A program made the position numbers and the translations under genes. DNA of 64,000 nucleotides from Eggerthellaceae bacterium (GTDB lineage: Bacteria > Actinomycetota > Coriobacteriia > Coriobacteriales > Eggerthellaceae), in assembly GCA_015062605.1 (NCBI GenBank), contig SUUI01000001.1, positions 62,001 through 126,000 of the forward strand, read 5' to 3'. Position 1 is the first letter of the stretch; each line of letters begins with the position of its first letter. The notes below the pieces were generated by a model that made no database searches, was not told the DNA's origin, and worked only from the letters and a program-made list of their open reading frames with translations. Positions 1 to 59,614 of the stretch are shown here, piece after piece.

Positions 1-127
1 TAGCATTTGGCTGGAAACAATGCAGCCCATAAAGCGTATTTGCTATAGTGATAGCGTTTTCGCGCCGCGCACACGAGCAGTTGCGAGAACCATGTTTGTA
101 CCATTCGTTGTCGGCTAAAGGAAATCT

Positions 128-19855: not shown

Positions 19856-19953
19856 CCCGATGAGCATGAAACGAACTCGCAATCTATCCGTTTGAAAATC
19901 AATGGCGTTTTTAAGACGTCGGCAGTTTTTTGATGAAAGGTAGGGTGATTCCC

Positions 19954-21228
19954 TTGTACGACACAGGATCGACGGCGTTCATGATCGTCTGCACGATGCT
20001 CGTGCTGCTCATGACGCCGGGTCTCGCATTCTTCTATGGTGGTTTGTCGAGACGAAAGAACGTCATCAACACCATGATCATGGTTCTTAGCATCATCGCC
20101 GTTGTGGGCGTGATGTGGATTATCTGCGGCTGGTCGTTCGCCTATGGAGGCGACGGCTCATTCTCTTTCTTCGGCGGATTCGATCAGCTCGGTTGCCTTC
20201 CAGCCGTAAACGACATGCTCTCTGATACCGCGAACGTTCCTGAAGGTGCAACCTATCCGGGAATCATCGATATTGGTTTCCAAATGGCGTTCTGCATGAT
20301 CACCTGTGCCATCATCACGGGTGCAGTCGCCGGCCGTATGAAATACGGGGCGATGCTCCTCTTCATCGCTCTATGGGTGCCGCTTGTCTACTCGCCGCTT
20401 GCCCATATGGTGTGGGGAGGCGAAGGCTCTCTCATAGGCGATGTGATCGGTGCACTTGACTTCGCGGGTGGCGACGTCGTTCACATCAGCTCGGGCGTAA
20501 CGGGCCTCGTGCTCTGCATATTGCTCGGAGGACGTCGCGGTTTTGGCCTCATGAGCTACCGTGCGCACAACGTCCCCTTCGTTGCTCTCGGCGCTGCTCT
20601 TTTATGGTTCGGTTGGTTCGGCTTCAATGCCGGCTCGCAATTCGCAGCTGATGGTACCGCTGCACTTGCCCTGCTCAACACCATCGCAGCTTCTGCAGCT
20701 GGTATGTTCTCGTGGATTTGCGTAGAACGTGTGCGCGTGCGCAAGCCAACGCTTGTCGGTGCCTGCACGGGTCTTGTCGCCGGCCTTGTCGGCATCACGC
20801 CCGCTGCCGGCTTCGTTGAGCCATGGGCGGCGATCGTCATCGGCCTCGTAACCGCACCCTGCTGCTTTTTCGCCATCAGCGTTGCGAAACGCAAAATCGG
20901 CTACGATGACGCACTTGATGCGTTCGGCTGTCATTCGGTCGGCGGTGTTGTGGGCGGTCTGCTCACTGGCATATTCTGCGTTCCCGAGCTTTCGTGGACC
21001 GATTTCGGCGGATTATTTTATACAGGCGATCCATCGCTTCTCATCAGCCAATTCTTGGGCATCCTCGTAACGCTTGCATTCGTCATCGTCCTCGGTCTGG
21101 TCATCGGCCTCGTTGTGAAGGCGATCTATACCGGCTCTTTGCGCGTGAGCGAAGCCGACGAAGCGCGCGGCCTCGATGTTGCCGCACATGGCGAAAGCGC
21201 CTATCCGGCGTACCTTGGACTCGACTAA
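19954..21228 (+). CDS. amtB: Ammonium transporter AmtB
   Basis: Trimeric ammonium channel of the Amt/Rh family, about 424 residues with roughly 11 membrane helices. The N terminus TPGLAFFYGG is typical. DFAGGDVVHISSG (near 170) carries the signature Asp and first pore His, and CHSVGGVVGG the second. I prefer the TTG at 19954 (giving YDTGSTAF, the usual Amt beginning) because AAGGTAGGG precedes it; TTG/ATG at 19930-19933 has no ribosome site. The PII gene follows by 44 bases, the standard amtB-glnK pair in which PII plugs the channel when nitrogen is sufficient. Confidence 0.95.
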   Translation: MYDTGSTAFMIVCTMLVLLMTPGLAFFYGGLSRRKNVINTMIMVLSIIAVVGVMWIICGWSFAYGGDGSFSFFGGFDQLGCLPAVNDMLSDTANVPEGATYPGIIDIGFQMAFCMITCAIITGAVAGRMKYGAMLLFIALWVPLVYSPLAHMVWGGEGSLIGDVIGALDFAGGDVVHISSGVTGLVLCILLGGRRGFGLMSYRAHNVPFVALGAALLWFGWFGFNAGSQFAADGTAALALLNTIAASAAGMFSWICVERVRVRKPTLVGACTGLVAGLVGITPAAGFVEPWAAIVIGLVTAPCCFFAISVAKRKIGYDDALDAFGCHSVGGVVGGLLTGIFCVPELSWTDFGGLFYTGDPSLLISQFLGILVTLAFVIVLGLVIGLVVKAIYTGSLRVSEADEARGLDVAAHGESAYPAYLGLD

Positions 21229-21272
21229 AACTTGGATTGCCACAACATAGCGATGCGTTGTAAGGAGTATGT

Positions 21273-21611
21273 ATGAAAAGAATAAGCGCCATCGTGCGCC
21301 CAGAGAAACTCGAACCATTGAAAGAAGCTCTGTTTGCCGCAAGCGTATCTGGCATGACCATCACCCAAGTGATGGGCTGCGGCAATCAACATGGCTGGTC
21401 GGAATACTTCCGCGGTACCGAGGTGCTGTTGAACATGATTCCTAAGGTGAAATTCGAGCTCATCGTTGCTGATGAAACCGTTGACGGAATCGTTGGGCTC
21501 ATCTGCGATACCGCAGCAACGGGCGAGGTCGGAGACGGCAAGATATTCATCAGTCCCGTTGAGGAAGTCGTGCGCATTCGCACGCGCGAACACGGCGAAG
21601 CTGCGATTTAA
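21273..21611 (+). CDS. PII nitrogen regulatory protein (GlnB/GlnK)
   Basis: 112-residue trimeric sensor of ATP/ADP and 2-oxoglutarate that binds AmtB. Conserved: MKRISAIVRP, Gln39, Lys58 in NMIPKVK, the B-loop TGEVGDGKIF, and RIRTRE at the C terminus, so ligand binding is probably intact. The T-loop is unusual: residue 51, the tyrosine that is uridylylated or adenylylated in proteobacteria and streptomycetes, is valine (RGTEV). Control by covalent modification at that site is therefore impossible. AAGGAG lies 8 bases before the ATG. Confidence 0.95.
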   Translation: MKRISAIVRPEKLEPLKEALFAASVSGMTITQVMGCGNQHGWSEYFRGTEVLLNMIPKVKFELIVADETVDGIVGLICDTAATGEVGDGKIFISPVEEVVRIRTREHGEAAI

Positions 21612-25767: not shown

Positions 25768-28700
25768 CTACCGCCTCGGCAAGTCTTGAAGCGCCACTAC
25801 ATCCAAGCCGTCGTTTTTAGCCACCTCCATAGCGGCAGCAAGCGCCTGGGCGGCAGCGATAGTCGTCGCATATGTTACGCCATACCGCACAGCTGCGAGG
25901 CGAAGCGCATAACCATCGCCACGCGAACCATGACCGAACGGCGTGTTAATCATCAGTTTTATCTCCCCGTCGGCAATCATGTCGACAATGCTCGAATGGC
26001 CTTCGCCAACCTTGCCGACCTTGCGGCATGGAATGCCCGAGGAAGCAAGGGTCTTAGCCGTTCCACCTGTACTCACGATGTCGAAACCAAGACGCGCGAA
26101 ATCGCGTGCGATAGATGCAATCGAGCGCTTATCGCGATCGGCAACGCTGATGAACACCGTCCCCGATGTGGGCAACTCATAGGAAATCGCTAGTTGCGTC
26201 TTCGCGTACGCCGCGGGAAACGCCGATGCGATTCCCATCACTTCGCCCGTTGATTTCATCTCGGGGCCGAGTACGACGTCTGAACCCGGGAACCGACCGA
26301 ACGGCAAAACTGCTTCCTTAACAGCACAATAGCCCAGATTGAGATCGTCAGGTGGTAACTCGATATCAGAAAGGCGCTCCCCCGCCATGACACGCGTTGC
26401 AACCTTTGCAAGCGGCACACCCGTCGCCTTGGAAACGAACGGTACGGTACGGCTTGCGCGAGGATTCGCCTCGATAACGTAAACATTCTGATCCTTCACG
26501 GCAAATTGGATGTTGAGCAGGCCGTGTACGCCGATGGCAAGCGACAAACGCCATGCGATGTCACGGAAGCGCGCAATTAACGCATCTGACAATGAAAACG
26601 GAGGGATGCAGCAAGCAGAATCCCCCGAATGGATGCCTGCTTCTTCGATGTGCTCCATCACACCGCCGATGTAGACGTCCTCACCATCGCAGACGCAATC
26701 AAGGTCGACTTCTATCGCCGATTCGAGGAATTTATCGAGATATACCGGGTGATCCGGCGAAATCTTCGCCGCCTCTCCCATGTACTTGCGAAGCTGCGCC
26801 GCATCGTACACGATTGCCATGCCGCGTCCACCAAGCACGTAGCTCGGACGGACCAGAAGCGGGAAGCCGATGCGTGCGGCAACTCGTTCGGCATCATCGA
26901 GTGTCGTCGCATCGCCCGCAGGCGGATACGCGATACCCAATCCATCGAGCAGCGCTGCGAATCTATCGCGATCCTCGGCAAGGTCAATCGCGTCAGCTCC
27001 GGTTCCCAAAAGAGGAACGCCAGCTTCTTCAAGCGCGCGGGCGAGCTTTAGTGGCGTCTGCCCGCCCAAGGTCGCGACCACGCCTTCAGGACGTTCGGCA
27101 TCGATGATATCCATGACGTCCTCAAAAGTCAGCGGCTCGAAATACAGTTTGTCGGACGTATCGTAATCCGTTGAAACCGTCTCCGGGTTGCAGTTCACCA
27201 TGATGGTTTCCCAACCCGCCTCCTTCAAGGCATAGCTTGCATGCACGCAGCAATAGTCGAACTCGATGCCTTGACCGATACGGTTAGGGCCAGCACCTAA
27301 GATGAGCGCCTTAGGCTTCCCGTTCGAATCCGCTTTGCTGTTCTGCGTACCGATTTCGGATTCGTCGGCATCGTAGGTTTTATAGTGGTACGCCGTGCCG
27401 CTTTCGAATTCCGCCGCGCACGTGTCGACGGTTTTGAATGCCGGGGTAACCCCAAGCGCCTTGCGGCGTGTACGCACGACGATCTCCGTCGAATTCGTGA
27501 GGAAGGCGATTTGCACATCGGATAGCCCATAGCGTTTCGCAATGCGGAATGCCTCGGCATCCATGTCATCGATGCGCACGCCGCGCAGAGCCTCTTGCAC
27601 GGCGACGATGTCGGCCATACGATCCAAGAAGAAACGATCGATGCCTGTAAGCTCGTGTATTTCGGCAGCCGTCCAACCGCAGCGCAGCGCGCATCCAACG
27701 TAGACGATTCGATCGCAAGTTGGACGCGCAAGCAGGCCAGCGTAACCCTCCTTTGTCTCGGATGCGCGCACATGTCCGTCAACGCCTAAGCCTGCGCGCC
27801 CGTTCTCGAGCGAGCGCAACGCCTTGCCGAGCGCCTCTTCGAACGTACGGCCGATCGCCATGACCTCGCCGACCGCCTTCATGCGCGTCGAAAGCGTATC
27901 GTCGGAGTCCTTGAATTTCTCGAATGCGAAGCGCGGTGCTTTAACCACGCAATAGTCGATGCTCGGTTCGAAGCATGCGGATGTGCTTCCTGTGATGTCG
28001 TTAACGATTTCAGGAAGTGTATAGCCGACTGCCAGGCGCGCTGCAACCTTCGCAATGGGAAAGCCCGTCGCCTTCGAAGCAAGAGCGGATGATCGGGAAA
28101 CGCGTGGGTTCATCTCGATGATGACCATACGCCCATCATCCGGGTTCACGGCGAACTGAACGTTCGATCCACCGGTTTGCACACCCACTTTCTCGAGGAC
28201 GGCAAGTGACGCTGTGCGCATGCGCTGGTATTCGATATCGGAAAGCGTTTGTGCGGGCGCAACCGTGATCGAGTCACCTGTGTGCACACCCATGGGATCG
28301 AGATTCTCGATCGAGCACACGACGATGCCGTTACCAGCACGGTCGCGTACGACTTCCATCTCGAATTCCTTCCAACCCTCGATGCTCTCCTCGACAAGCA
28401 CTTCATTCGCAGGAGAAAGCTCAAGGCCTTGCGAAACGATTAAGGCAAGCTCGTCATCGTTGTGGGCGATACCTCCGCCAGCGCCACCCAACGTGTATGA
28501 AGGACGCAAGACAACAGGGAAACCGATGCGCGCGACGATCTTCCGGGCATCGTCGACTGAATACGCATAACCCGACTTCGCCGTTGCGATGCCGAGCTCG
28601 GACATGCATTCATTGAAAAGCTTGCGCTCCTCGCCTTTCTGTATGGTCTCGACATCGCAGCCGATCATCTCAACGCCGAAACGATCGAGCGCACCGCGCA

Positions 28701-29010
28701 TCGCCAATTCAACGGCGGCATTGAGCGCAGTCTGCCCTCCAAGCGTTGGAAGGAGCGCATCGGGATGTTCCTTCGCAATGATCTTCTCGATGAATTCCGC
28801 TGTAATCGGTTCGACGTACGTGCGATCGGCTAACTCGGGATCGGTCATGATGGTAGCAGGATTGCTGTTCACGAGGATGACACGATAGCCCTCCTCGCGC
28901 AGAACCTTGCATGCCTGGGCGCCCGAATAGTCGAATTCGCATGCCTGGCCGATCACGATTGGGCCAGACCCGATAACGAGAATGCTTTCGATGTCAGTTC
29001 TTTTCGGCAT
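25768..29010 (-). CDS. carB: Carbamoyl-phosphate synthase, large subunit
   Basis: Joins bicarbonate, ATP and the ammonia tunnelled from CarA to make carbamoyl phosphate for pyrimidines and arginine. About 1080 residues with the internal duplication: two ATP-grasp halves ([15 protein letters not shown] near 245 and [12 protein letters not shown] near 790), the oligomerisation domain between them, and an MGS-like allosteric domain after about 935. Start at ATG 29010 ([17 protein letters not shown]), two bases after the carA stop, with GGAGG inside the end of carA. Confidence 0.97.
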
Positions 29011-29012
29011 GA

Positions 29013-30338
29013 TCAGAACCTCCATCCTTCCAAGCGGTCGCGTGCGATATCGATATCGAGAAAGTCTTTCTCGCCATCCATAAGGCGCGAGAACGCGGTG
29101 AACAGATAATGCGAATCCACAGGCCCTGGGTTTGCCTCCGGATGATATTGAACGGAAAAAGCAGGGATATCCGTGAACGCGATACCCTCTGCAGTACCAT
29201 CATTGAGATTCACATGCGTAAGCCGAATTCCTCCGAAGCGTTTATTGGCAACAAGGGGTGCGGCGTGCTTTTCGTTCCAATATCGTAAATCGCTTTGATG
29301 CTCGCCATTGCCGCCGCTTTGCTCGGAAACGAACGGACCGAGACTTTGGAACACAAGATTGAATCCATGGTTCTGAGCGGTGATTTCAACACGGCCCGTC
29401 AGCAAGTTCACTACAGGATGATTACCACCGTGATGACCGAACTTGAGCTTCTCGATTTGCGCTCCCGCAGCCTTGCAGATCATCTGATGTCCCATGCAAA
29501 TACCGAATACAGGAAGCTCGCCGAGCAATTTGCCCACTTGCTCATAGGTGCCCGCAACCACATCGGGATCCCCAGGACCGTTAGAGACGAACACGCCATC
29601 GGGAGACATCGCGAGAACATCACTCGCAGGCGTATCCCACGGGACGACCGTCACTTCGCACCCCACGCGCACAAGTCCCTCGAGGATAGAGCGCTTTACT
29701 CCGCAGTCGTAGGCGACTACGCGATGCGAAACCTCCTTCGCCGAAGAGAGCGCGAATGACTTCTCACTCACAAGGTCGGCAAAACCGAACGAATATGGCT
29801 CGTCGCACGAAACGGATTGCACGAGGTTGATGCCGACGATGGAAGGACTCGCCTTCACTTTCTTTAACAGGCTTGTGCGATCGATATCGATAGTAGAAAT
29901 GACCGCACGCATCGCGCCGAAATCGCGCACATGGCGCACAAGCGCCCTTGTGTCGATTCCCTCGATGGCGACCACGCCCTCGCGTTCAAGGTATTCAGGC
30001 AAGCTAAGCTCGCTTCGCCAATTCGATGGCGTATAACACATGTCACGTACCACGAGACCGCGCAGCACGGGCCGCGAAGCTTGCGCGTCATCTTCCCGCA
30101 CTCCGTAGTTTCCGATTTGCGGATATGTCATCGTCACGATTTGCCCAGCATAGCTTGGATCGGTGATGACTTCGAAATAGCCTTCGAGGGAGGTATTAAA
30201 GCAGATCTCTCCGAAAGCCTCACCTTCTGCTCCACATGAAATCCCGCGATAGGCCGTACCGTCTTCCAACATGAGCAGGGCTTCTTTTATCGGCGGTTTC
30301 GATGTCGCCGCCAACATGCGTTCTGAAAGGTCACTCAT
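29013..30338 (-). CDS. carA: Carbamoyl-phosphate synthase, small (glutaminase) subunit
   Basis: Class I glutamine amidotransferase that supplies ammonia to CarB. 441 residues, longer than the usual ~380: about 20 extra residues at the N terminus and a Ser/Gly-rich insert near 345. CPSase_sm_chain domain (20-~155), then GATase with the nucleophile in FGICMGHQM and the His-Glu pair in YHPEANPGP. The ATG at 30338 overlaps purF by 8 bases. Confidence 0.96.
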
Positions 30339-31815
30339 AGTCGGCTTCTTTCTTTATGTACTTGAGGAATCCTTTACGTTGCAATGATTCTGGGATCGCA
30401 ACAGGATAATCGCCGCTGAAGCAGGCATCGCAATACCCGGCATGATCGGAATGGATTGAATCGTGCAGGCCTTTAAGACTGATAAATGCAAGCGAATCAC
30501 AGCCGATATATCGACACGCTTCATCAAGCGTCATGTTCGCCGAGATGAGTTGATCCTGCGTATCGGTGTCGATACCGAAAAAGCAAGGCCACATAACTTC
30601 AGGACTCACGATACGCAGATGTACTTCTGCCGCACCTGCCTCACGAAGCATCTCCACGAGCTTTTTCGATGTATTGCCGCGAACGATTGAATCATCGATG
30701 ACCACGAGCCTCTTCCCGCGGATCACCGAGGGAAGCGGATTGAGCTTGATTCGTATGCCCATCTGGCGCATTTCCTGAGTGGGCTGGATGAATGTACGCC
30801 CGACGTATCGGTTCTTCACGATGCCATCGATGTAGGGAATGCCGCTTTCTTCGGCGTAGCCGAGCGCCGGAGGCACGCCCGAATCGGGTACGCCGAGCAC
30901 TAAATCGGCATCTATGGGCGCCTCAAGCGCCAACGTACGGCCCATACGGCGGCGCGCATGATATACAACGTCACCATCAATCACGCTATCGGGACGTGCG
31001 AAGTACACGTATTCGAAGATGCAGCTCGCACGTCGCCCTGGCTCGATTCCCTGTTCGGATTCCAACCCCTTTGCGCTTATCTTCACGATTTCCCCTGGTT
31101 CGATATCGCGCACGAACTCGGCTCCGACCGCATCGAGACCGCATGTCTCGCTCGAAACCACCCATCCGCGATCGTTGGGCAATTGCCCAAGAGATAACGG
31201 ACGGATGCCGTTGGCATCGCGGAATGCGTAAAGGGCGATAGGCGTGACTAAAACGATCGCATATGCTCCATGGAGCTGTTGCATCATGAGGCGGATACCG
31301 CCGCGGATATGGCCGGTACGGCGCGTGTCGACGCCGATAGTGCGTGCAGCGACCTCGCTATCGGTATGACCGTACAGTTGCACTCCCTCGTTGGCAAGCC
31401 ATGCGCGTTGGGGCAACGTATCAACGAGCGTGCCATTATGCGCAAGCGCAATAAGCTCATCGTCTATGGCGGAAACATGCGGCTGAGCTTCTTTCCAACC
31501 ACCTCCTCCGGCAGTGGAATAACGCGTATGCCCTATGGCAATACCTCCGTTGAGATGGGAAAGCGCTTCCTCATCGAATACTTGGTCGACAAGTCCAAGG
31601 TCCTTGTGAATCAGAATCGTCTCTCCGTTTCCGACGGCAATGCCTGCGCTCTCCTGTCCTCGATGCTGCAGGGCCTGCAAACCGAAGCAGGTTAAGCGTG
31701 CAGCATCTTCACCAGGTGCATACACGCCGAACACGGCACAAGCTTCTTCGAGACGATCGGGCCGGGCATCGCTATCGCAAGGTTGCCATTGAAAATGATA
31801 CGAATCTTGGAGCAT
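30331..31815 (-). CDS. purF: Amidophosphoribosyltransferase
   Basis: First committed step of purine synthesis: PRPP plus glutamine to phosphoribosylamine. About 494 residues. The N terminus carries a propeptide before Cys-Ala-Val-Phe-Gly (EEACAVFGVY); cleavage exposes the nucleophile Cys, as in the Bacillus-type enzyme. The PRPP loop VVIDDSIVRGNTS is near residue 365. Cysteines such as those in HSDHAGYCDACFSGDYP may bind the 4Fe-4S cluster of this class. I favour ATG 31815; the stop of the upstream gene lies just before it. Confidence 0.96.
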   Translation of the reverse strand: MLQDSYHFQWQPCDSDARPDRLEEACAVFGVYAPGEDAARLTCFGLQALQHRGQESAGIAVGNGETILIHKDLGLVDQVFDEEALSHLNGGIAIGHTRYSTAGGGGWKEAQPHVSAIDDELIALAHNGTLVDTLPQRAWLANEGVQLYGHTDSEVAARTIGVDTRRTGHIRGGIRLMMQQLHGAYAIVLVTPIALYAFRDANGIRPLSLGQLPNDRGWVVSSETCGLDAVGAEFVRDIEPGEIVKISAKGLESEQGIEPGRRASCIFEYVYFARPDSVIDGDVVYHARRRMGRTLALEAPIDADLVLGVPDSGVPPALGYAEESGIPYIDGIVKNRYVGRTFIQPTQEMRQMGIRIKLNPLPSVIRGKRLVVIDDSIVRGNTSKKLVEMLREAGAAEVHLRIVSPEVMWPCFFGIDTDTQDQLISANMTLDEACRYIGCDSLAFISLKGLHDSIHSDHAGYCDACFSGDYPVAIPESLQRKGFLKYIKKEADYE

Positions 31816-31820
31816 ATAGA

Positions 31821-34394
31821 TCACATCACCGCGAATAATGTCTTGTTGTTTAACGTGTCATGGAATAACTTCAGCGTCTTTCCCGAAGGACGAACGGTAA
31901 ACACGATATTCTGCAAATCGGGATCATCGTGTTCGACGGCTTTGAAATCGAGTGTGCGAAGAACATCGGGGTCATAGCAAAGGGTCCGAGCGTCTTCGAA
32001 CAGCGCTCCATAATAGATGTTCGCCTCGACAAGGTCCTGGAACATATGGCTGCCATATGAGAGTTCGGGCGCATAGCCTGCCCCTGAGTAGGCGACTTCA
32101 CACAGGCCTTCGAAATTGCAGATGTCTGCAAAGCTTACAGGAACGCCTAATTCGGGAGACGATGTCCCGATACGTCCCGGCGATATCAGCATGCCGTGCT
32201 CCCCCGCTTTGCCAAGCCGCTTGTTCTGTGCATCAATCAAAGCTGCAACCTGAGGCTTCTTGCGATAAGGACAGCGATAGTATGCTTCGGGGTCGATGTA
32301 GACGATCTCGTCGATGACCGATTCGCGCGAGCTTCCCATCGCCGCGTCTTGGATATGGAAAACTATGTCGTGCGCTTCATCAACGGGCAGCTCCACCGTG
32401 TTCGTGCCAGATAGCGACTGCAAAGGACGGCATTGCAAAAGGCTCAACACGAACGAGCCGTCTTCGCCAACATTCACGGTATACTCGACGTCCACCGGAT
32501 TATCGTAGGCAGTCTCCAACGTCTTTAGAATATTGCGCATCAGCGCAACGAATTCGCGATTGTTCGCAAGACCCTCGCATGAGGCGAAGAGCACCTGCTG
32601 ATACGCGCCACGTCCACGCAATGTCTCCTCCGCCTCGCGATCGTGCTCCATCACCGCATTGCGCGCCCGCGTAGAGAGCAAGGGGGAAAGATCAGTGCAG
32701 AGCTTCTCAGTGAAAGCGGGTTCGTTCAAATCGATGAGGTTGGCGTAACGTTGCGAGAACCGATGCTTTTCAGCAACCGTCTTGAACGTGGTTGCCGTCG
32801 GTCGATCGAGACTGATGATGCGAGGGTAATCTTTGCCGGTTCTATCAACCGCTTTCGTGCCCAAACCCATGACCAATCGCAGCATACCTGCACTAGGATC
32901 CATATCCTTCATCCAGCAATATGCGCTGTGCGAATAGCCGACGCCCGCAGCAGTGGGCATGTAATAGCCTCCTGGAAGGTGCGAACCGCTCACACGCTGC
33001 ACGAGCAGCGACATTTGCTCTTCGCGCGCATCGAGACCGTTGCGGACACGGTATTCAAGTGCCGAACGATCGAGGCTCGAAGCATACACGTAGCGAACGG
33101 CATCCTCGAAGGCCGCAAGGCGCGTCTCCGCGTCGCCGATGTTCGGGCAGAACGCCGATTCGTATTTGCCAGCGAATGCATTGCCGAAGCCATCTTCCAA
33201 AAAACTCGATGAGCGCACGATGATGGGCACTTGCCCGTAATAGTCGATGATGCGCATGAAACTTTCGTGAATGTCGGGCGGGAATGTGCCTGCGAGAATA
33301 CCCGCTTGTAAGTCGGGCGCCGCTTCGATGAAGCCCTCGCCGCTTTGCTGGCTGATGCGCAACTTCCACAAATCGTTGTATACGATGAACGTGTAGAACA
33401 CATCTGTACCCACATAAAACGAGTCATGCGGCTCCATGAACGCCTGCGCCTCGGGAAGATCGTGTTCAACGATCTTCCGAGCAAGCAGCATGCCACATGA
33501 CTTTCCTCCGACGAGACCTGTGCCAACCATGCGGTTACGAACTGCGAAGTAATCGTCGGGAGAGAAATACTCGGTGATCATCAATCGCATGCGCTCGTCT
33601 TTCGTCATCATCATGTTGCACATATGAGAGCAGGCATGCTCGTCGAGCTTCCCTTGCGAGTATGCTCGGCGCGTATCAATGAAGAAACGGTCCCATGAGT
33701 CGATATTGCGCTCCCCCGCATCATCCGATTCCTCTGCCTCTTTCTGGGCATAGAAGCGGCTCATACCGACGCCATCGGTCAATCCCTCAACGATGCTCGT
33801 CCCGAGATCGAATCGATGCGGCAGGAACATAGATGACGAACTGCGATTCCACACCTTGAGTGGATGGATGAATAGCTCGTCCTGTCCATGGTATACGTCG
33901 ATGAACAACTGGGTAGTATCGCGAATCTTCGCAACTGCCGCGAAAGAATGGCGTCCGCGAAGGATGGGGAAATACGCAACTGTATCGAGTTCGAAAAGAT
34001 AGGGGCAGGTCACGCGGAAGAAGTTACCCATCATCATGTCGGATGACCACGCAACCTGAAGTTCGCTTAAGCAATCGAACACATAGAAGGCATCGAAACC
34101 TTCCTGCGTGATCACTCGGCGCACGGCGACGGTAAAGGTTTCAAAGCCCTCGTTGGGGTCGAATTGGTAGATTTTCAGACCATCCATCTGCTCAAGCAAA
34201 GCCTGATGTGAGGCGAAGCGGATATAGATGAGATTGCGTCCATCGCGGATTGCCTGATCGACGAAGGGCTTGAAGAAGCGCTGGAAATCGGAAAGCGTGG
34301 TCAGCTGCCACACCACGTTGTCACCCAAACGTATGTTGTCGAACACGGAATCAAGCGAAGGAATACCGCACTCGATTCTTTCGAAAGCCGCCAT
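31821..34394 (-). CDS. PEP/pyruvate-binding domain protein with degenerate KaiC-like N-terminus
   Basis: 857 residues, function unknown. Residues 7-185 resemble a RecA/KaiC ATPase (GIPSLDSVFDNIRLGDNVVW at the start, FYVFDCLSEL at the Walker B place), but no Walker A GxxGxGK is present, so it is probably not an ATPase. Residues about 290-660 match the ATP-grasp region of PEP synthase/PPDK: GGKSCGML (297-303), IIVRSSSFLEDGFGNAFAGK (391-410) and LLQCRPLQ (652-659). The phosphohistidine swivel and PEP-catalytic domains are missing; a 200-residue C-terminal region of unknown fold replaces them. It sits 78 bases downstream of glnA1 and next to purF, so it may be a sensor or regulator of the glutamine operon; that is inference. 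Confidence 0.75.
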   Translation of the reverse strand: MAAFERIECGIPSLDSVFDNIRLGDNVVWQLTTLSDFQRFFKPFVDQAIRDGRNLIYIRFASHQALLEQMDGLKIYQFDPNEGFETFTVAVRRVITQEGFDAFYVFDCLSELQVAWSSDMMMGNFFRVTCPYLFELDTVAYFPILRGRHSFAAVAKIRDTTQLFIDVYHGQDELFIHPLKVWNRSSSSMFLPHRFDLGTSIVEGLTDGVGMSRFYAQKEAEESDDAGERNIDSWDRFFIDTRRAYSQGKLDEHACSHMCNMMMTKDERMRLMITEYFSPDDYFAVRNRMVGTGLVGGKSCGMLLARKIVEHDLPEAQAFMEPHDSFYVGTDVFYTFIVYNDLWKLRISQQSGEGFIEAAPDLQAGILAGTFPPDIHESFMRIIDYYGQVPIIVRSSSFLEDGFGNAFAGKYESAFCPNIGDAETRLAAFEDAVRYVYASSLDRSALEYRVRNGLDAREEQMSLLVQRVSGSHLPGGYYMPTAAGVGYSHSAYCWMKDMDPSAGMLRLVMGLGTKAVDRTGKDYPRIISLDRPTATTFKTVAEKHRFSQRYANLIDLNEPAFTEKLCTDLSPLLSTRARNAVMEHDREAEETLRGRGAYQQVLFASCEGLANNREFVALMRNILKTLETAYDNPVDVEYTVNVGEDGSFVLSLLQCRPLQSLSGTNTVELPVDEAHDIVFHIQDAAMGSSRESVIDEIVYIDPEAYYRCPYRKKPQVAALIDAQNKRLGKAGEHGMLISPGRIGTSSPELGVPVSFADICNFEGLCEVAYSGAGYAPELSYGSHMFQDLVEANIYYGALFEDARTLCYDPDVLRTLDFKAVEHDDPDLQNIVFTVRPSGKTLKLFHDTLNNKTLFAVM

Positions 34395-34420: not shown

Positions 34421-34458
34421 GATACCTGGAGGCTTAAAGGTGCGAACCTCCAGGTATC
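34421..34458 (-). terminator. 12-bp perfect hairpin between glnA1 and the PEP-binding gene
   Basis: Perfect stem 34421-34432 with 34447-34458, 14-base loop, followed on the minus strand by TTTCT. The short T tract suggests a partial terminator, or a processing/stabilising hairpin that would leave glnA1 mRNA more abundant than the genes behind it. Confidence 0.6.
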
Positions 34459-34472
34459 GAGTGCTACGCCGC

Positions 34473-36557
34473 TTAGCAGTAGAACAGGATCTTGTTGTAG
34501 GTCGGCATCGGCCATGCCTTGGTCGAGACGATGCCCTCCATCTCGTCACACACGGTACGCAAACGACCCATGGCAGCAAGAACTTCATCGTGATACACGC
34601 GGGCTTTCTCGAGAGCATCCTCGGTAGCTTGCGCCTTCTCGAGCGCCTCATCGAGCTCCTCAAGCTCTTCGGCGATACCATTCGCGCCATCGTTGAGCTT
34701 CTCCAAAAGCTTCAGATCAGCCTTTGGTTTCAGTTTGGAGTTCGCCTGCTTCTTCGCATTGATGGTGTCCGCGATCTGCTCTGCATAGGCGCTGACAGCC
34801 GGGACGATCTTGCGCTTGGTCATATGGCTCATCGTCTGGCCCTCGATGTTGATAAGCTTCGCATAGGTCTCAAGCTTAACCTCATAGCGGGCATGGTTCT
34901 CAACCTCGTTGAACACACCGAATTCCTTGAACAATGCGATGTTCTTAGGATCGAGCATATGCGGAGCAGCGTCGACCGTGGACTTCAGATTCAACAGCCC
35001 ACGGCGCTCGGCTTCCTCGATCCATTCATCGGTATAGCCATCGCCGTTGAAGATGATGCGCTGATGCGCAGTGAGCGTCGCGCGAACCCAGCTAAATGCG
35101 GCCTTCTCGAAATCATCGGCACCATCGACAGCCTCGCAGAAGTTCTTGAGCGACTTCGCAACGATCGTGTTGAGGATCGTATTCGCATCAGCAAGGTTGA
35201 TCTGACTACCTGGCATACGGAACTCGAATTTGTTTCCCGTGAAGGCGAAGGGGCTCGTACGGTTACGGTCGGTATTGTCGCGCTCGAAGCTTGGCAACAC
35301 GTCGACGCCGAGATCCATGTACACAGCATCGACCGTCTTCTCTTCCTCACCGGTGATGATGGCTTGCACGACACGGTCGAGCTCGTCGCCCAAGAACATG
35401 GAGACGACTGCAGGCGGAGCTTCATTCGCGCCAAGACGATGGTCGTTGCCGGCACTCGCAACTGCGATACGCAGAAGATCCTGGTAATCATCGACTGCTT
35501 CGACGACAGCCGTCAAAAACACGAGGAAGCGTAAATTGGAAGCGGGAGTCTTGCCAGGATCGAGCAGGTTCTCGGAATCGGTGGCAATGGACCAGTTGTT
35601 GTGTTTGCCCGAACCATTGACGCCTGCGAACGGCTTCTCGTGCTGCAAGCAAACCAAACCATGGCGGCTCGCGATGGTCCTCATAAGTTCCATGGTGAGC
35701 AGGTTGTGATCGATGGCAACGTTGCTGATGGTAAACATAGGTGCGAGCTCGTGCTGGCAAGGAGCGACCTCGTTATGCTTCGTCTTCGCCGCGACACCGA
35801 GCTTCCACAGTTCCTCATCAAGCTCCTTCATGAATTCGTTCACCGTCGGTCGAATCGCACCGAAGTAATGTTCCTCGAGCTCTTGGCCCTTGCACGGAGG
35901 AGCGCCGAATAAAGTACGGCCGGTAAGCATCAAGTCTTGGCGTTGCTCATAATCGGATTCCTTGATCAGGAAGTATTCCTGCTCGGCGCCAACAGTCGTA
36001 GTTACACGCGGGACATCCTGGCCGAACAGGCCGAGAACCTGACACGCCTGCTTGGAAACGGCTTCCATCGAACGCAGAAGCGGCGTCTTCTTGTCGAGCG
36101 CTTCACCGGTGTAGCTGCAAAACGCTGTCGGAATGCACAGCACTTCGTCTTTGATGAACGCATAGCTCGTCGGATCCCATGCCGTGTAGCCGCGCGCCTC
36201 GAATGTGGCACGCACGCCACCCGATGGGAAGCTCGAAGCGTCGGGTTCGCCCTGAATGAGCGCTTTACCTGAGAAGGTCATGATCGCACGGCCATCCTTC
36301 TGGGGATCGAGGAAGGCATCATGCTTTTCGGAAGTGATACCGGAAAGCGGCTGGAACCAATGGGTATAGTGCGTTGCGCCATGGGCGACGGCCCATTCCT
36401 TCATAGCATGCGCAACAACATTGGCGACTTCGATGTCAAGCGGCTTTCCCTGCTTGATCGTCTTCGAAAGAGCCTTGTACGTAGCAGACGGCAAGAGCTC
36501 TTGCATCGTATGGTCGTTAAATACGAGTGTGCCATACTCCTCAGCGATTCGTCCCAT
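34473..36557 (-). CDS. glnA: Glutamine synthetase type III (copy 1)
   Basis: Makes glutamine from glutamate, ATP and ammonium; type III forms large dodecamers and is unrelated in regulation to adenylylated GSI. 694 residues from ATG 36557, which has AAAGGGG upstream; the frame extends 135 bases further but without family similarity. GSIII signatures: HWFQPLSG near residue 65, NGSGKHNNWS, LGANEAPPAVVS, and NRTSPFAFTGNKFEFRMPGS. Helical C-terminal extension with coiled-coil character (about 640-670). First gene of the run leading into purF, carAB and glmS; a periodic-repeat block lies 150 bases upstream. Confidence 0.96.
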   Translation of the reverse strand: MGRIAEEYGTLVFNDHTMQELLPSATYKALSKTIKQGKPLDIEVANVVAHAMKEWAVAHGATHYTHWFQPLSGITSEKHDAFLDPQKDGRAIMTFSGKALIQGEPDASSFPSGGVRATFEARGYTAWDPTSYAFIKDEVLCIPTAFCSYTGEALDKKTPLLRSMEAVSKQACQVLGLFGQDVPRVTTTVGAEQEYFLIKESDYEQRQDLMLTGRTLFGAPPCKGQELEEHYFGAIRPTVNEFMKELDEELWKLGVAAKTKHNEVAPCQHELAPMFTISNVAIDHNLLTMELMRTIASRHGLVCLQHEKPFAGVNGSGKHNNWSIATDSENLLDPGKTPASNLRFLVFLTAVVEAVDDYQDLLRIAVASAGNDHRLGANEAPPAVVSMFLGDELDRVVQAIITGEEEKTVDAVYMDLGVDVLPSFERDNTDRNRTSPFAFTGNKFEFRMPGSQINLADANTILNTIVAKSLKNFCEAVDGADDFEKAAFSWVRATLTAHQRIIFNGDGYTDEWIEEAERRGLLNLKSTVDAAPHMLDPKNIALFKEFGVFNEVENHARYEVKLETYAKLINIEGQTMSHMTKRKIVPAVSAYAEQIADTINAKKQANSKLKPKADLKLLEKLNDGANGIAEELEELDEALEKAQATEDALEKARVYHDEVLAAMGRLRTVCDEMEGIVSTKAWPMPTYNKILFYC

Positions 36558-36662
36558 GTGAGTTCCCCTTTCTTTCCGATCATCTGCAGTACGCTTTTGC
36601 GTACGGCAGCTTGAAGACCGATTCATTACCGTTTTTTTGATGCGTACTCGTTTTGGAACACT

Positions 36663-36693
36663 GAAAAGATAGTGCCCGCATGTTACGGGCACT
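36663..36693 (-). terminator. Terminator downstream of dapL
   Basis: Stem AGTGCCCG (36671-36678) with CGGGCACT (36686-36693), 7-base loop, followed on the minus strand by ATCTTTTC. It ends the gltB-gltD-dapF-dapL run. It lies between the periodic repeats and glnA1, so it could instead be a leader hairpin if glnA1 transcription begins upstream of it. Confidence 0.75.
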
Positions 36694-38995: not shown

Positions 38996-40363
38996 TCATT
39001 TTCTTTTATCGGCCTCGGCGACAATCCGATCTACGACCTGCAGAGCATCAGCCATTGCCGTAGCAACAAGGGTCGAACCCATGCGCGCGTCGCCGGCAAC
39101 GTATACGTTTTTGTTCGCAGCAAACGCTTCGAGCACTTTCTGCTCGGCGCCGATGAAGCCTTTTGCAATCAACACCAAATCGGCAGGGACCTCAAAAGAA
39201 TCACCATCGGGAATCGGACGGGCTAAGACCGCCGAAACCGATCCTTCCCCGTTATCAACGAAACCGACAGTATCTGTTGACCACAAGCGAGGATCTTCCC
39301 CGAAAAGCGCCATGGCTTCACGCTGACCGTAGCCTTGCGTGTAGACGTCCCTTGCATTCGGCCACGCGTCCCAAGAATCAGCTGAATCAGGCGACCTTTT
39401 CGCACGGATGATCTGGCGAACGCTGGCTGCACCTTGACGCAATGCCGTCGCTACGCAATCGACGCCCGTATCGCCGCCACCGATGACGGCAACGTTCTTT
39501 CCCTTTGCCGTGATGGAGGCTTCTCGTTCGTCAAGAAGCGCATGCGTTGCCTCACTGAGATATTCGACTGCGAAATGAATGCCCGAAAGCCCTGCTCCTG
39601 GAACGTCGACGCGACGCGGCATGCGGGAACCGCATGCGATCACGACGGCATCTGATTCTGCGCAGATATCATCAGCGATGGACACGGCATCTGTATTGAG
39701 GAAAAACTCGATACCGCTCTCCTCCATCAGTTGGCACCGACGTTCAACTACCCACTTGGGGAGTTTCATGTTCGGGATGCCGTACATGAGCAAACCACCA
39801 GGCCGATCGTCTTTCTCGTAAACGCGTACGCGCCATCCCCTTCGCGCAAGTTCCCACGCCGCCGTTAGTCCAGCAGGCCCGGATCCGATGATGCTTGCGA
39901 GGGGCGCATCCGATGCACACTTCGGCAACGGATCGATTCCTAAAGACCATTGGAAATCAGAAATCGCGCGCTCGTTATCATGGATGGTCACCGACGCATC
40001 GTTCAATCCAAGATTGCATGCTGCTTCGCATGGCGCTGGGCACACGCGTCCTGTGAATTCAGGAAACGGGTTAGTTAGGCTCAAGCGTTTTGCAGCATCG
40101 GAAAGTCGCCCGCGATACAGCAAATCGTTCGTCTCGGGAATGAGGTTATGGAGCGGGCAGCCCGTAGCACGCCGCGCTCCGTTGAACGCCAGACCGCTCT
40201 GGCAGAAGGGAACGCCGCAATTCATGCAACGACTTGCCTGCTCACGCTGTTCTTCGGATAGCAAATCAACAGTGAAATCATCGAAATCCCGGATTGCCTC
40301 AACTGCCGGCCGCATACCGTGCTCTTTACGGCCGACTTGTAAAAATGCACCTGATCGGCCCAT
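38996..40363 (-). CDS. gltD: Glutamate synthase, small (NAD(P)H, beta) subunit
   Basis: Passes electrons from NAD(P)H through FAD and Fe-S clusters to GltB. 455 residues. N-terminal cysteine clusters CMNCGVPFC, CPLHN and CPAPCEAAC bind 4Fe-4S; then the FAD-binding GSGPAGLTAAWELARRG (about 160) and the NAD(P) loop VIGGGDTGVDC (about 305). The start is one base after the gltB stop, so the subunits are translationally coupled. Confidence 0.97.
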   Translation of the reverse strand: MGRSGAFLQVGRKEHGMRPAVEAIRDFDDFTVDLLSEEQREQASRCMNCGVPFCQSGLAFNGARRATGCPLHNLIPETNDLLYRGRLSDAAKRLSLTNPFPEFTGRVCPAPCEAACNLGLNDASVTIHDNERAISDFQWSLGIDPLPKCASDAPLASIIGSGPAGLTAAWELARRGWRVRVYEKDDRPGGLLMYGIPNMKLPKWVVERRCQLMEESGIEFFLNTDAVSIADDICAESDAVVIACGSRMPRRVDVPGAGLSGIHFAVEYLSEATHALLDEREASITAKGKNVAVIGGGDTGVDCVATALRQGAASVRQIIRAKRSPDSADSWDAWPNARDVYTQGYGQREAMALFGEDPRLWSTDTVGFVDNGEGSVSAVLARPIPDGDSFEVPADLVLIAKGFIGAEQKVLEAFAANKNVYVAGDARMGSTLVATAMADALQVVDRIVAEADKRK

Positions 40364-40364
40364 G

Positions 40365-43300
40365 TTACGACCTCGCTTTCCTCGACTCGAATGCCTCCTC
40401 GACGGCTTGGTTGTGCGTCAAGCCAGACGCCTCGAGCTTAGCCGTAAGGCTCATGATGGCTTCGTATTCCCGCGGAATCACCTTCACGAAATCTCGTGCG
40501 ATATCACCGAAGCGGTATAGCAGCTTGATGCCCAGAGGGCTTCCCGTGCGCTGCACGTGCTCATCGACAAGCTTCCTGATAAGGTCGAGCTCATCGTTGT
40601 CGGGAGCCTTGATGTCGACCATCTCGCGGTTGCAACGTTCTGTAAGCGTATGTTCGGCATCGTAGACATATGCCACGCCGCCGCTCATACCCGCTGCGAA
40701 ATTGAGTCCAACCTCGCCTAAGATGAGCACGGTGCCGCCCGTCATGTACTCGCAACCGTTGTTTCCAACGCCTTCAACGACTAAGGTTGCGCCAGAATTA
40801 CGCACGGCAAAGCGCTGACCGGCAAGCCCATTCACGAATCCGCGACCGCCCGTTGCACCGTAAAACGCCACATTGCCCGCGATGATGTTCTCCTCGGGAC
40901 GATAGTTCGCCGTGCGCGGCGGAGCAACCGACACGATACCGCCCGACAATCCCTTACCGAAGAAGTCGTTGGTCTCGCCTTCGATGTTGAGCGTGATGCC
41001 TGCTGGCAGAAACGCACCGAAGCTCATACCGCCGGAACCTGCGCAGTCGATCGTCAGCGTCTCATCAGGAAGCCCGTCTGCATGGCGCCCGGTCACCTCC
41101 GAACCGAGCATCGTTCCGACGCAGCGATTCACATTCGCGATATCCACATGGAATCGCTGGGGTGAAAGCGTGTTGCGGGCATCGCTCGAATAAGGGATGA
41201 GCAGTGTCGCATCCAGCGTACGATCGAGCGTGTTTTCTGGCGCACACGATGCAACCGAATGGGGGCTGTCCGCACCGTGAATCGCACGTCCGTACTCAGC
41301 ATGTGCTTGAACGAGTAGGTCGGAAAGATCGACGAGCCGAGCCTTCCAACTCCGCGCAACATCGAGTTGTTGCAAGCAATCGACGCGGCCAACCATGTCC
41401 TCGACAGTCGCAAAGCCCATATCGGCCATGAAATGCCGCAGTTGTTCGGCAACCATCATCATGAAGTTGACCACGTATTCGGGTTTGCCTTTGAAGCGGT
41501 TACGCAACTCGCAGTTTTGCGTGGCGATACCAACAGGGCACGTATCCTGTTGGCAGTCACGTTGCATCAGGCAGCCCATAGCCACGAGCGGCATCGTCGC
41601 GAAACCGAACTCCTCGGCACCGAGCAGGCAGGCAATGGCCACATCGCGACCATCCATCAACTTGCCATCGGCCTCGAGCACAACTCGTGACCGAAGACCG
41701 TTACGCAAAAGCGTCTGCTGCGTCTCGGCTAAACCCAATTCAAGCGGTAAGCCAGCGTGGTAGATGGAATCACGTGGTGCAGCACCCGTGCCGCCATTGC
41801 TGCCAGATATCAGGATCTTGTGCGCCCCGCCCTTCGCAACGCCTGTTGCAATGGTGCCCACGCCCGCTTCGGCCACAAGCTTCACCGAAACGCGGGCGCT
41901 CGGATTGGAGTTCTTCATATCGAAGATTACTTCCGCCAGATCCTCAATCGAGTAAATATCGTGATGTGGCGGCGGCGAGATGAGACCCACGCCAGGCGTG
42001 CATCTACGTGCACGTGCGATCCAAGGCCACACTTTCCCACCGGGAAGATGACCGCCCTCGCCCGGCTTTGCACCCTGGGCCATTTTAATCTGTATCTCAT
42101 CAGCGCTCATAAGATAGCGACTTGTCACGCCGAAGCGTCCCGATGCAATCTGCTTGATCGCCGAACGTTTGCTATCTCCATTCGGAAGCGTCACCTCACG
42201 TGCCGGATCCTCTCCGCCCTCGCCACTGTTCGAACGACCTTGGATCCTATTCATGGCTATGGCAAGGCATTCGTGTGCTTCCTGAGAGATAGAGCCATAG
42301 CTCATCGCTCCCGTATTGAAGCGTTTTACGATCTCGCTTGCCGGCTCAACGGAACTGAGCGGAATAGGACGATTCACGGGAGCGAATTGGAGCAGATCGC
42401 GCAGCACGATGGTACGTCCAGGCGCATGCACGGACCTGCTGTACTTCTCGAACAAAGCGTAGTCGTTTTCGCGCACGGCGCGCTGGAACAGATTTATCGT
42501 GATGGGATTCAGAAGATGCTCCTCGCCTCCGAGGGGTCGCCATGACGTGCGACCTGAGCTCGGAAGCTGATCAGGAGATGGGGTCTTGCGCAAGTTGCAT
42601 GCAGCCTCATGGCGTTCGTCGCATTCCCGCTGGACATCATCGATCGTCAAGCCGCCAATGCGACTGACCGTTCCTGTGAAGTGCTCATTTACGAGCGCTT
42701 CCGATAAGCCCACCGCTTCGAAAATCTGCGCTGCATGATATCCCTGCATGGTCGAGATGCCCATCTTGGACATAATGGAGACTATTCCCGCGACGATTGC
42801 TTGGTTGTAATTCGCAATCGCCTCGTCCACATCGATCTCGACGATTCCGCGTGCGCACAAGTCGCGAATGGTATCGTGAATAAGATACGGGAAGATGCCG
42901 GAAGCCGAATAGCCCACCAATGCCGCGAAGTCATGCGGAGTGATGGCATCGCCCGTCTCGACGATGATATCAGCATGCGTGCGAAGCCCTCGTCTTAGCA
43001 AATGGTTATGAACCGATGCAACCGCGAGCAATGATGGCACAGGCGCGCGCCCATCGCTTGCCCTATCGGAAAGGACGATGAGGTCGTTTCCGGCGCGTAC
43101 GGCCTCCTCAGCTTTGGCGCGCAACTCCTTTAGAGCATTATCGAGCGCATGCGCTCCTTCCTGAGGCGCATACGTTGCATTCAGAATAGCCGCTTTGAAT
43201 CCATGGCGTTCAACATGGGCGAGACCTTCGAACTGGGCCTTATTCAAAATCGGCACATCGAGGCGGATAAGCCGACAATTCGATCGGGCATCATCGAGCA

Positions 43301-44978
43301 GATTGCCGTGATTGCCGATGTACAGAAGCGTTGACGTGATGAACGATTCACGCAACGCGTCAATCGGCGGATTCGTAACCTGTGCGAACAGCTGGTTGAA
43401 ATAATCGAAAAGGCTGCGCGGTTTTTCGGAAAGGCATGCGAGCGGGATATCCGCACCCATCGACGCCAACGGTGCTGCGCCGTCTTTCACCATGGGTATG
43501 ATCGCCTCTTCGATATCATCGTAGAAATAACCATGCTGCGCTTGGCGCTCATGCAGAGGGATATGTGCATCAGGGGCATTATCAGATAATGCCTCGCCTT
43601 CTTCGATCAGCTCATCAAGCGTGAGCATTTCAGCATTGATCCACATGCGGTACGGCTTTTCATTCGCGAATTCGTTCTTGATCTCGTCATCGAACAGCAC
43701 GCGGCCTTTCGAAGGGTCGACAAGGATCATCTGCCCTGGTCCTAAGCTACCTGCAATGAGCACCGTGGCAGGATCTACGTCCAATACGCCGACTTCGCTC
43801 GAAAGGATCAGGCGATCATCGGTAGTCACGTAGTAGCGCGCCGGACGCAAACCGTTGCGATCGATGCATGCACCGGTAACGATGCCGTCGGAAAACGCAA
43901 TAGCCGCTGGTCCGTCCCATGCCTCGGTGAGCATGGATTGGTACGCGTCCCATGCACGGCGTTTGTCAGATAGGTTCTCGTTCTTATCCCATGGCTCGGG
44001 AAGCACCATCGAAACCGCACGTGGCAAGCTGCGACCATTCATGGTGACGAATTCGAGCAGGTTGTCGAGCATAGCGGAGTCGGATCCCTCGTTGTTCAGG
44101 ATCGGGAATACCTTTTCCAGGTCGGCACCCATCACTGGAGAGTACAGGTTCGACTCGCGCGCCCGCGTCCAGTTCACATTGCACCGGAGCGTGTTGATTT
44201 CGCCGTTGTGCACGATATAGCGATTAGGATGAGCGCGTTCCCAAGATGGCGTTGTATTCGTGGAATAGCGCGAATGCACAAGCGCTACAGCCGTTTCCGT
44301 TGAAGCGTCGTTCAAGTCAAGGAAGAAGCGCCTCATCTGGGTAGACACGAGCATGCCTTTATACACGATGGTCCTCGAACTCATCGAGCATACGTAGAAG
44401 ATACGCGAAGCCAAACCAGGATCGACTGACGCAGATTTCTCGATGGTTCGCCTGCATACATAAAGCCGCCGTTCGAATTGCTCGCCCACCTCCGCATCAT
44501 CTGGTCGCCCGAGAAATGCCTGCTTGATCGTCGGCATGCATTCGCGTGCTGTTTCGCCTAAATCGTGTGGATCGGTTGGCACGTCGCGCCAGAACAGCAG
44601 AGGTATGCCGCATTGCGCGCATCCCTCCTCGAAAACGCTCATTGCGCAGGCAACGCCTTCCTCGTCGCGTGGCAAAAACAGCATTGCGACACCGTAATCA
44701 CCTTCAGAAGGAAGCAGGCGCCCGCACTTCTGCGCTTCTTTTCGGAAGAAACGGTGCGGTATCTGGAAAAGGATGCCTGCACCGTCACCGGTGTTCTTCT
44801 CCAAGCCGATGCCGCCACGATGCTCAAGGTTTACAAGCACCGACAGCGCGTCATCGAGCATCTGATGGGATCGTTTGCCTTGCATGTGAGCCAACGCGCC
44901 AATGCCGCACGCGTCATGCTCGAACTGTGGCCGATATAAGCCTTGACCGCTTGGTTGCTGTTCGTCTTCGTATGTCAT
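40365..44978 (-). CDS. gltB: Glutamate synthase, large (alpha) subunit
   Basis: Reductive transfer of the glutamine amide to 2-oxoglutarate, giving two glutamates. 1537 residues, full length. A 23-residue propeptide precedes the catalytic cysteine (EHDACGIG). Domains: type II glutaminase (to ~430), central domain (~470-760), FMN-binding synthase domain with the 3Fe-4S cysteines in CLMQRDCQQDTCPVG (about 1130), and the C-terminal GxGxG beta-helix (~1270-1460). Together with the two GlnA proteins it completes the GS-GOGAT cycle. Confidence 0.97.
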   Translation of the reverse strand: MTYEDEQQPSGQGLYRPQFEHDACGIGALAHMQGKRSHQMLDDALSVLVNLEHRGGIGLEKNTGDGAGILFQIPHRFFRKEAQKCGRLLPSEGDYGVAMLFLPRDEEGVACAMSVFEEGCAQCGIPLLFWRDVPTDPHDLGETARECMPTIKQAFLGRPDDAEVGEQFERRLYVCRRTIEKSASVDPGLASRIFYVCSMSSRTIVYKGMLVSTQMRRFFLDLNDASTETAVALVHSRYSTNTTPSWERAHPNRYIVHNGEINTLRCNVNWTRARESNLYSPVMGADLEKVFPILNNEGSDSAMLDNLLEFVTMNGRSLPRAVSMVLPEPWDKNENLSDKRRAWDAYQSMLTEAWDGPAAIAFSDGIVTGACIDRNGLRPARYYVTTDDRLILSSEVGVLDVDPATVLIAGSLGPGQMILVDPSKGRVLFDDEIKNEFANEKPYRMWINAEMLTLDELIEEGEALSDNAPDAHIPLHERQAQHGYFYDDIEEAIIPMVKDGAAPLASMGADIPLACLSEKPRSLFDYFNQLFAQVTNPPIDALRESFITSTLLYIGNHGNLLDDARSNCRLIRLDVPILNKAQFEGLAHVERHGFKAAILNATYAPQEGAHALDNALKELRAKAEEAVRAGNDLIVLSDRASDGRAPVPSLLAVASVHNHLLRRGLRTHADIIVETGDAITPHDFAALVGYSASGIFPYLIHDTIRDLCARGIVEIDVDEAIANYNQAIVAGIVSIMSKMGISTMQGYHAAQIFEAVGLSEALVNEHFTGTVSRIGGLTIDDVQRECDERHEAACNLRKTPSPDQLPSSGRTSWRPLGGEEHLLNPITINLFQRAVRENDYALFEKYSRSVHAPGRTIVLRDLLQFAPVNRPIPLSSVEPASEIVKRFNTGAMSYGSISQEAHECLAIAMNRIQGRSNSGEGGEDPAREVTLPNGDSKRSAIKQIASGRFGVTSRYLMSADEIQIKMAQGAKPGEGGHLPGGKVWPWIARARRCTPGVGLISPPPHHDIYSIEDLAEVIFDMKNSNPSARVSVKLVAEAGVGTIATGVAKGGAHKILISGSNGGTGAAPRDSIYHAGLPLELGLAETQQTLLRNGLRSRVVLEADGKLMDGRDVAIACLLGAEEFGFATMPLVAMGCLMQRDCQQDTCPVGIATQNCELRNRFKGKPEYVVNFMMMVAEQLRHFMADMGFATVEDMVGRVDCLQQLDVARSWKARLVDLSDLLVQAHAEYGRAIHGADSPHSVASCAPENTLDRTLDATLLIPYSSDARNTLSPQRFHVDIANVNRCVGTMLGSEVTGRHADGLPDETLTIDCAGSGGMSFGAFLPAGITLNIEGETNDFFGKGLSGGIVSVAPPRTANYRPEENIIAGNVAFYGATGGRGFVNGLAGQRFAVRNSGATLVVEGVGNNGCEYMTGGTVLILGEVGLNFAAGMSGGVAYVYDAEHTLTERCNREMVDIKAPDNDELDLIRKLVDEHVQRTGSPLGIKLLYRFGDIARDFVKVIPREYEAIMSLTAKLEASGLTHNQAVEEAFESRKARS

Positions 44979-59286: not shown

Positions 59287-59310
59287 CACTCCTTCGTTAC
59301 GAGAGAAGTG
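59287..59310 (-). promoter_or_regulatory. Predicted Shine-Dalgarno-sequestering hairpin
   Basis: On the minus strand CACTTCT (59304-59310) can pair over 7 bp with AGGAGTG (59287-59293), which contains the symporter ribosome site. The upstream arm adjoins the 3' end of the riboswitch, so glycine binding could decide whether it forms. Confidence 0.55.
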
Positions 59311-59400
59311 CCCTGTCCGTTTGCCTGAGAGATCGATAGCTAAGGAAAGCTACCTTACACCTTCGGCGCCCGTCTATATTCGGGACTCTCCAGAGAAATA
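59305..59400 (-). promoter_or_regulatory. Glycine riboswitch (single aptamer)
   Basis: On the minus strand the consensus blocks occur in order: CTCTGGAGAG (5' side), GCGCCGAAGG (59360-59369), a variable hairpin with AGGTAGC/GCTATCG, CTCTCAGGCAAA (59320-59331) and GGACAG (59313-59318). Only one aptamer is visible, not the common tandem. It sits immediately upstream of the AGCS symporter. Confidence 0.93.
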
Positions 59401-59614
59401 ATTACGCTCGATCTCTGAGATTGAAGACCAAGCGTGCTCGATTATAATGATGGCAAATTGTGAATTGATTAATAATCACGTGCAGAACGGCAGACGGAAA
59501 CAAGCGCGCCCAAACGGCACAAGTACGTTTCCAAACGTGGTTTTTGAGCCGATGAAACGATTGCGCGAATGCGTATGCTGTGCAGGCATCATGCCCGATA
59601 AGAAAGGATAATCC
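59401..59614. promoter_or_regulatory. Divergent promoter region between the symporter and nuclease genes
   Basis: The whole gap 59283-59614 has no gene. Its left third is the riboswitch. A perfect TATAAT on the minus strand (59441-59446) would start transcription about 35 bases before the aptamer. For the nuclease on the plus strand I see only the ribosome site AAAGGA before the ATG and no convincing promoter; an AT-rich patch lies at about 59455-59480. Confidence 0.5.

Follow-up and report, generated by a model that had tools for sequence, protein, structure and literature searches.

A dikinase-like protein with a KaiC-like domain as a candidate regulator of ammonium assimilation

The 857-residue protein described here, encoded within a 64,000-nucleotide stretch of an Eggerthellaceae genome (the window), combines a KaiC-like N-terminal domain, an ATP-grasp domain and a C-terminal domain with an invariant histidine. 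Because its relatives repeatedly adjoin genes of ammonium fixation, the protein probably regulates nitrogen uptake, a role that has gone unrecognised. More specifically, the reading that we tentatively prefer, at slightly less than even chances, is that of a regulatory (histidine) dikinase-like protein that controls ammonium assimilation in the manner of VadK. To our knowledge, the regulation of type III glutamine synthetase (GSIII) and GDH after their synthesis is poorly understood in gut and rumen anaerobes. The family, found in Clostridia and Coriobacteriia as well as in Bacteroidota and rumen methanogens, is a concrete and testable candidate for such a regulator. VadK is the one recent example of a dikinase that has become a metabolic regulator; if the reading is true, central nitrogen metabolism would be a second field in which this has happened. 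No study of the family came up in a search of titles and abstracts that also covered PPDK_N combined with DUF5752 or KaiC-like domains, and dikinases combined with GDH or GS.

The open reading frame, present in one copy in the genome, runs from an ATG at 34394 to a TGA at 31823–31821 and belongs to a tight run of genes in the order GSIII, dikinase-like gene, purF, carA and carB (Table 1). Its stop codon lies within the 4-nt overlap with the listed GTG start of purF, and 78 nt separate it from the GSIII gene. The stable 14-bp hairpin in this interval, which is without a good U-tract, is possibly an attenuator or a processing site downstream of GSIII.

Table 1. Positions of the dikinase-like gene, its domains and key codons, and neighbouring genes in the window
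Feature	Position	Strand	Remarks
Dikinase-like protein gene	31821..34394	minus	857 aa: KaiC-like domain, PPDK_N ATP-grasp, C-terminal domain
Residues 1–220	33735..34394	minus	KaiC CII-type RecA fold without P-loop (pseudo-ATPase)
Residues 288–660, PPDK_N ATP-grasp	32415..33533	minus	ATP-site residues intact
K298 codon, GGK motif	33501..33503	minus	49/49
Residues 661–857, C-terminal domain	31824..32414	minus	possible divergent swivelling phosphohistidine domain
H783 codon	32046..32048	minus	first residue of a predicted helix; motif S-x-G-[ST]-H
GSIII, upstream gene	34473..36692	minus	Pfam GSIII_N E 1e-79
14-bp hairpin, between GSIII and dikinase-like gene	34421..34458	minus	fold z -4.2, 86-nt stretch
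purF	30331..31824	minus	overlaps dikinase-like gene by 4 nt
carA	29013..30338	minus	overlaps purF; assigned by sequence
carB	25768..29025	minus	overlaps carA; assigned by sequence
gltD and gltB (glutamate synthase)	38996..44978	minus	
amt, then PII gene (21273–21590)	19930..21590	plus	Amt by sequence; PII PF00543 E 2e-27
Second GSIII, 725 aa	52131–54308	minus	Pfam GSIII_N E 1e-80

The AlphaFold2 model of the whole protein (47 sequences) has a pLDDT of 88.3 and a pTM of 0.88. Residues 1–220 match the KaiC CII domain 8dba_B in VIA with a Z-score of 21.3 over 204 residues (2.8 Å, 16% identity) and share with KaiC the CII-type RecA fold and the GIPxLD opening. Unlike KaiC, the dikinase-like protein has no P-loop and carries a single KaiC copy fused to a dikinase-like core. 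The first 120 residues contain a Walker A motif in none of 86 KaiC-type homologues. An earlier note on this DNA had described a degenerate KaiC domain without a P-loop that keeps a GIPSLD opening and a Walker-B-like segment. This description holds: the opening is present, and the Walker-B-like strand ends in the invariant D107. D107, N124, C130 and P131 are among the positions that are invariant in both KaiC-type alignments. Since Walker A is missing, yet these other positions do not vary, the domain is kept for a role other than that of a P-loop ATPase, and without a P-loop it can have neither ATPase activity of this kind nor the kinase chemistry of KaiC. The KaiC-like domain most likely has a part in assembly or senses a ligand.

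PPDK_N (PF01326) is the sole Pfam match of the 857-residue protein (residues 294–668, E 4e-43). In VIA, the ATP-grasp region is similar to 5hv6_A (285 residues, 3.3 Å, Z-score 22.6) and to structures of Rph and PEP synthase (Z-scores of 22–26). Residues K298, R394, E400, D401, E637, Q654 and R656 do not vary among 49 homologues, which represent four architectures. Judging from its motif, K298 is presumably the equivalent of Rph K22, and the phmmer alignment pairs R394 with Rph R117 and S413 with Rph T136, the invariance of S413 being limited to the KaiC-type alignments A1 and A2. In Rph, K22 is essential for all activity, R117 and T136 are needed for rifampin resistance, and E297 can be replaced without loss (PMC4844700). 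The profile match and the invariant Lys, Arg, Glu and Gln residues of the ATP site bear out the previous suggestion that this domain keeps the PEP synthase signatures.

The C-terminal domain, folded alone with AlphaFold2, has a pLDDT of 93.6. In VIA, the best rows for it are the central domains of PPDK (5jvn with a Z-score of 6.7 over 122 residues at 3.5 Å, and 5jvl with 6.5), the PEP-utilizer domain of pyruvate kinase (3t05, 6.6) and the histidine domain of Rph (5fbu, 6.1). Phosphohistidine or PEP-utilizer swivel domains account for eight of the ten best rows, with Z-scores below 8 that are not decisive and may reflect a common arrangement. Alignments of the full model with PEP synthase (2ols, 15..467) and Rph (5hv3, to 866) extend into the histidine-domain regions of these proteins. 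Foldseek with the C-terminal domain alone gave nothing below E 0.03, and its top matches, glycosidases and chitinases, align at ~16 Å and were rejected.

H783 is the only invariant histidine of the protein (49/49 homologues, four architectures), and R741, E766 and S779 are likewise invariant across the four architectures. In the model, H783 opens a helix assigned by DSSP to residues 783–790, with a strand after it. The phosphorylated histidine of PPDK occupies the same place. The position of the C-terminal domain after the ATP-grasp domain, as in PEP synthase, and its family-wide histidine speak for a swivel domain, an identity that we consider likely. It lacks the T/SxxGGxxxH motif of such domains, and Pfam gives no PEP-utilizers (PF00391) match in the protein, the only one in the genome belonging to a different ORF, of the PPDK type, elsewhere on a second contig. 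The profile match to an intact phosphohistidine domain that the earlier note had named as evidence against its own reading was not obtained: the hhalign comparison with 35 PEP-utilizer domains was not significant (probability 0.2). The PEP/pyruvate barrel likewise has no Pfam match, and no residues are left for it. The protein therefore cannot catalyse the PEP synthase reaction as known, just as had been proposed, and the catalytic domain is indeed missing. To call the phosphohistidine domain missing as well was too strong: the ATP-grasp domain is followed by a divergent domain that carries an invariant histidine and is weakly similar in structure to swivel domains.

With the canonical histidine motif and the KaiC P-loop gone and the PEP-utilizers profile match short of significance, the ATP-grasp domain might simply bind ATP, ADP or AMP and control GS or GDH allosterically through direct binding, with no phosphotransfer and H783 in a structural or ligand-binding role. 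Such a non-catalytic energy sensor is rather unlikely, as the full conservation of the phosphate-positioning residues from K298 to R656, and the invariance of R741, E766, S779 and H783 over four architectures, go beyond the needs of binding. In the reading that we prefer, that of a regulatory dikinase-like protein, the intact ATP-grasp domain would bind Mg-ATP, and the phosphate would probably pass to H783, the C-terminal domain taking the part of a divergent swivel domain. Once phosphorylated, the protein would act on an enzyme of ammonium assimilation encoded nearby (GSIII here; GDH, GSI or glutamate synthase elsewhere) and control it, either by binding to it or by handing the phosphate on.

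Among characterised proteins, VadK (Rv1127c) of Mycobacterium tuberculosis combines a PPDK-derived ATP-grasp domain with a histidine, autophosphorylates on His422 and binds enzymes of the methylcitrate cycle (PMC13400623). VadK and the dikinase-like protein share the PPDK-type ATP-grasp domain, the loss of the PEP/pyruvate domain and a supposed action on enzymes of a metabolic pathway. VadK, however, has a recognisable PPDK histidine domain and no KaiC-like domain, and its target is the methylcitrate cycle, whereas ammonium assimilation is proposed for the protein described here. With PEP synthase and PPDK, the protein has in common PPDK_N and the order of an ATP-grasp domain followed by a swivel-like C-terminal domain, but it has neither their PEP/pyruvate barrel nor a PF00391 match. 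Rph-Lm (PMC4844700) and HpeHI (PMC12167813) share the ATP-grasp fold (Z-scores of 18–26) and the equivalents of R117 and T136, and the swivel domain of Rph weakly resembles the C-terminal domain in structure. Compared with these two, the dikinase-like protein has no substrate-binding domain and no T/SxxGGxxxH motif, and it has the KaiC-like domain in addition.

Rph and HpeI are the closest characterised folds, the catalytic residues are intact, and the acceptor domains of dikinases in the same group are diverse (PMC4844700, PMC12167813). The protein could accordingly be a small-molecule dikinase like Rph and HpeHI, in which the C-terminal histidine relays phosphate to a nitrogen metabolite bound by the KaiC-like or another accessory domain. 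The chances of this are low: in the family, the accessory domain is swapped for a receiver-like or other domain or is missing, as would be expected of signal input rather than of a single set substrate, and no common metabolite suggests itself.

The family core consists of the ATP-grasp and C-terminal domains and occurs in at least four architectures. In the first (~860 aa), it follows a KaiC-like domain. The second (1061–1069 aa) begins with a stretch that has no assignment and ends in a nucleotidyltransferase (PF01909 E 9e-10, motif GS...GSDIDL), and the third (~985–1019 aa) has a receiver-like region, whose match is below the Pfam cut-off in two of three scanned proteins, and DUF5752. In the fourth, the core (~575 aa) mostly stands alone. 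In hhalign, the KaiC-like domain aligned with the N-terminus of neither the 1066-aa nor the Bacteroidota-type proteins. Hosts include Coriobacteriia, Lachnospiraceae, other Clostridia, rumen Methanobrevibacter and Bacteroidota. Proteins annotated in RefSeq Bacteroidota as ‘PEP/pyruvate-binding domain-containing protein’ (e.g. WP_041525632.1 of Parabacteroides distasonis, beside gdhA) have the same core and a GTH motif, but a receiver-like domain and a DUF5752-like region replace the KaiC-like domain. The other listed genomes of the window's own family in the class sample gave no match, so the gene is patchily distributed. Two of the 1066-aa relatives (L164, 8044–11241, and L166, 8485–11685) lie directly after GDH and have a nucleotidyltransferase end with an intact motif, reminiscent of GlnD/GlnE chemistry.

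Neighbourhoods were scored for GDH, GSI, GSIII, glutamate synthase and Amt proteins within 10 kb, mainly in an even random draw over one phylum. Such a neighbour accompanies 8 of 16 KaiC-type loci, 4 of 7 receiver-type loci and all 7 nucleotidyltransferase-type loci, in which GDH lies immediately upstream on the same strand (with a gap of ~16 bp in L166 and 54 bp in L170). None was found at 20 canonical PEP-synthase-type control loci from the same genomes and draw, nor at 13 stand-alone cores. Against the controls, Fisher p-values are 4e-4 for the KaiC type alone and 3e-6 when the three types of the draw are taken together, with rows that are not fully independent. Elsewhere, the counts are 5 of 20 Coriobacteriia loci and 20 of the best 80 database matches, both possibly undercounts as some contigs end early. 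In Methanobrevibacter, glutamate synthase lies 32–89 bp upstream in 8 of 9 loci; at locus L045, the gene is flanked by GDH and by a divergent GSI. The Bacteroidota survey comprised three plasmid-collection records. At least 15 changes of the neighbour state occur on the tree, which was built with FastTree alone and gave long-branch warnings, and since the partners also differ, inheritance of a single gene cluster was rejected as the explanation.

For the proposed ammonium-assimilation-associated family, adjacency lies above background, except among the nearest relatives of the window protein. These Olsenella- and Collinsella-type loci have no such neighbour, glnA included, so the GSIII link may be recent in the window lineage. 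The connection to glnA and glutamine drawn in the earlier note was therefore half right: genes of ammonium assimilation are a recurrent association in several phyla and architectures (8/16 and 7/7 against 0/20), but the link is not specific to glnA, and the fixed link with glnA looked for in the gene-neighbourhood survey is absent from the nearest relatives. The idea of a sensor of energy or carbon state that acts on glutamine flux is compatible with these results.

The variety of partners (GDH, GSI, GSIII, GltB, Amt) among lineages is also easier to reconcile with a regulator than with one set step of a pathway. It argues against a metabolic enzyme of unknown reaction, e.g. an ATP-grasp ligase, co-expressed with nitrogen genes by chance. 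Many ATP-grasp enzymes are ligases, and there are partial matches to the NCBIfam prodigiosin ligases PigC and RedH; the PigC match is limited to the ATP-grasp domain, and of the readings weighed here we give this one the least credence. Accessory modules that vary around a constant core are reminiscent of signalling proteins. An ATP-using core that stays constant, sensor-type modules that are exchanged and neighbours that change but still assimilate ammonium together fit a regulator best. The regulatory reading is weakened by the low hhalign probability, the VIA Z-scores below 8 and the absent T/SxxGGxxxH motif of the C-terminal domain, and by the nearest relatives and the 13 stand-alone cores that have no nitrogen neighbours. 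A broader proposal, which is possible but doubtful, is that of a widespread and so far unrecognised class of histidine dikinases with interchangeable sensors (KaiC-like, receiver-like and nucleotidyltransferase-linked) that would exert phosphohistidine control over GS, GDH or glutamate synthase in bacteria and archaea, alongside PII.

Many of the stand-alone 575-aa cores (L173, L175, L176, L177 and L180–L182) have in common a different, conserved neighbourhood of FAD oxidoreductases and a tsaD-like gene, and may have a separate function.

In the window, positions 19930–48949 gather the glutamine-related genes amt, PII, glmS, carAB, purF, GSIII, gltBD, pyrG and an asparagine-synthase-like gene, of which amt, glmS, pyrG and the last were recognised by sequence alone. 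With so many glutamine genes clustered, the local context of the dikinase-like gene is by itself weak evidence. The PII gene shows that another nitrogen regulator is present in the genome, which counts against the regulatory reading. Farther along the window, a glycine riboswitch aptamer (Rfam RF00504, 55 bits; 59303–59403, minus strand) lies just upstream of a gene (57831–59282) whose product resembles sodium:alanine symporters in sequence.
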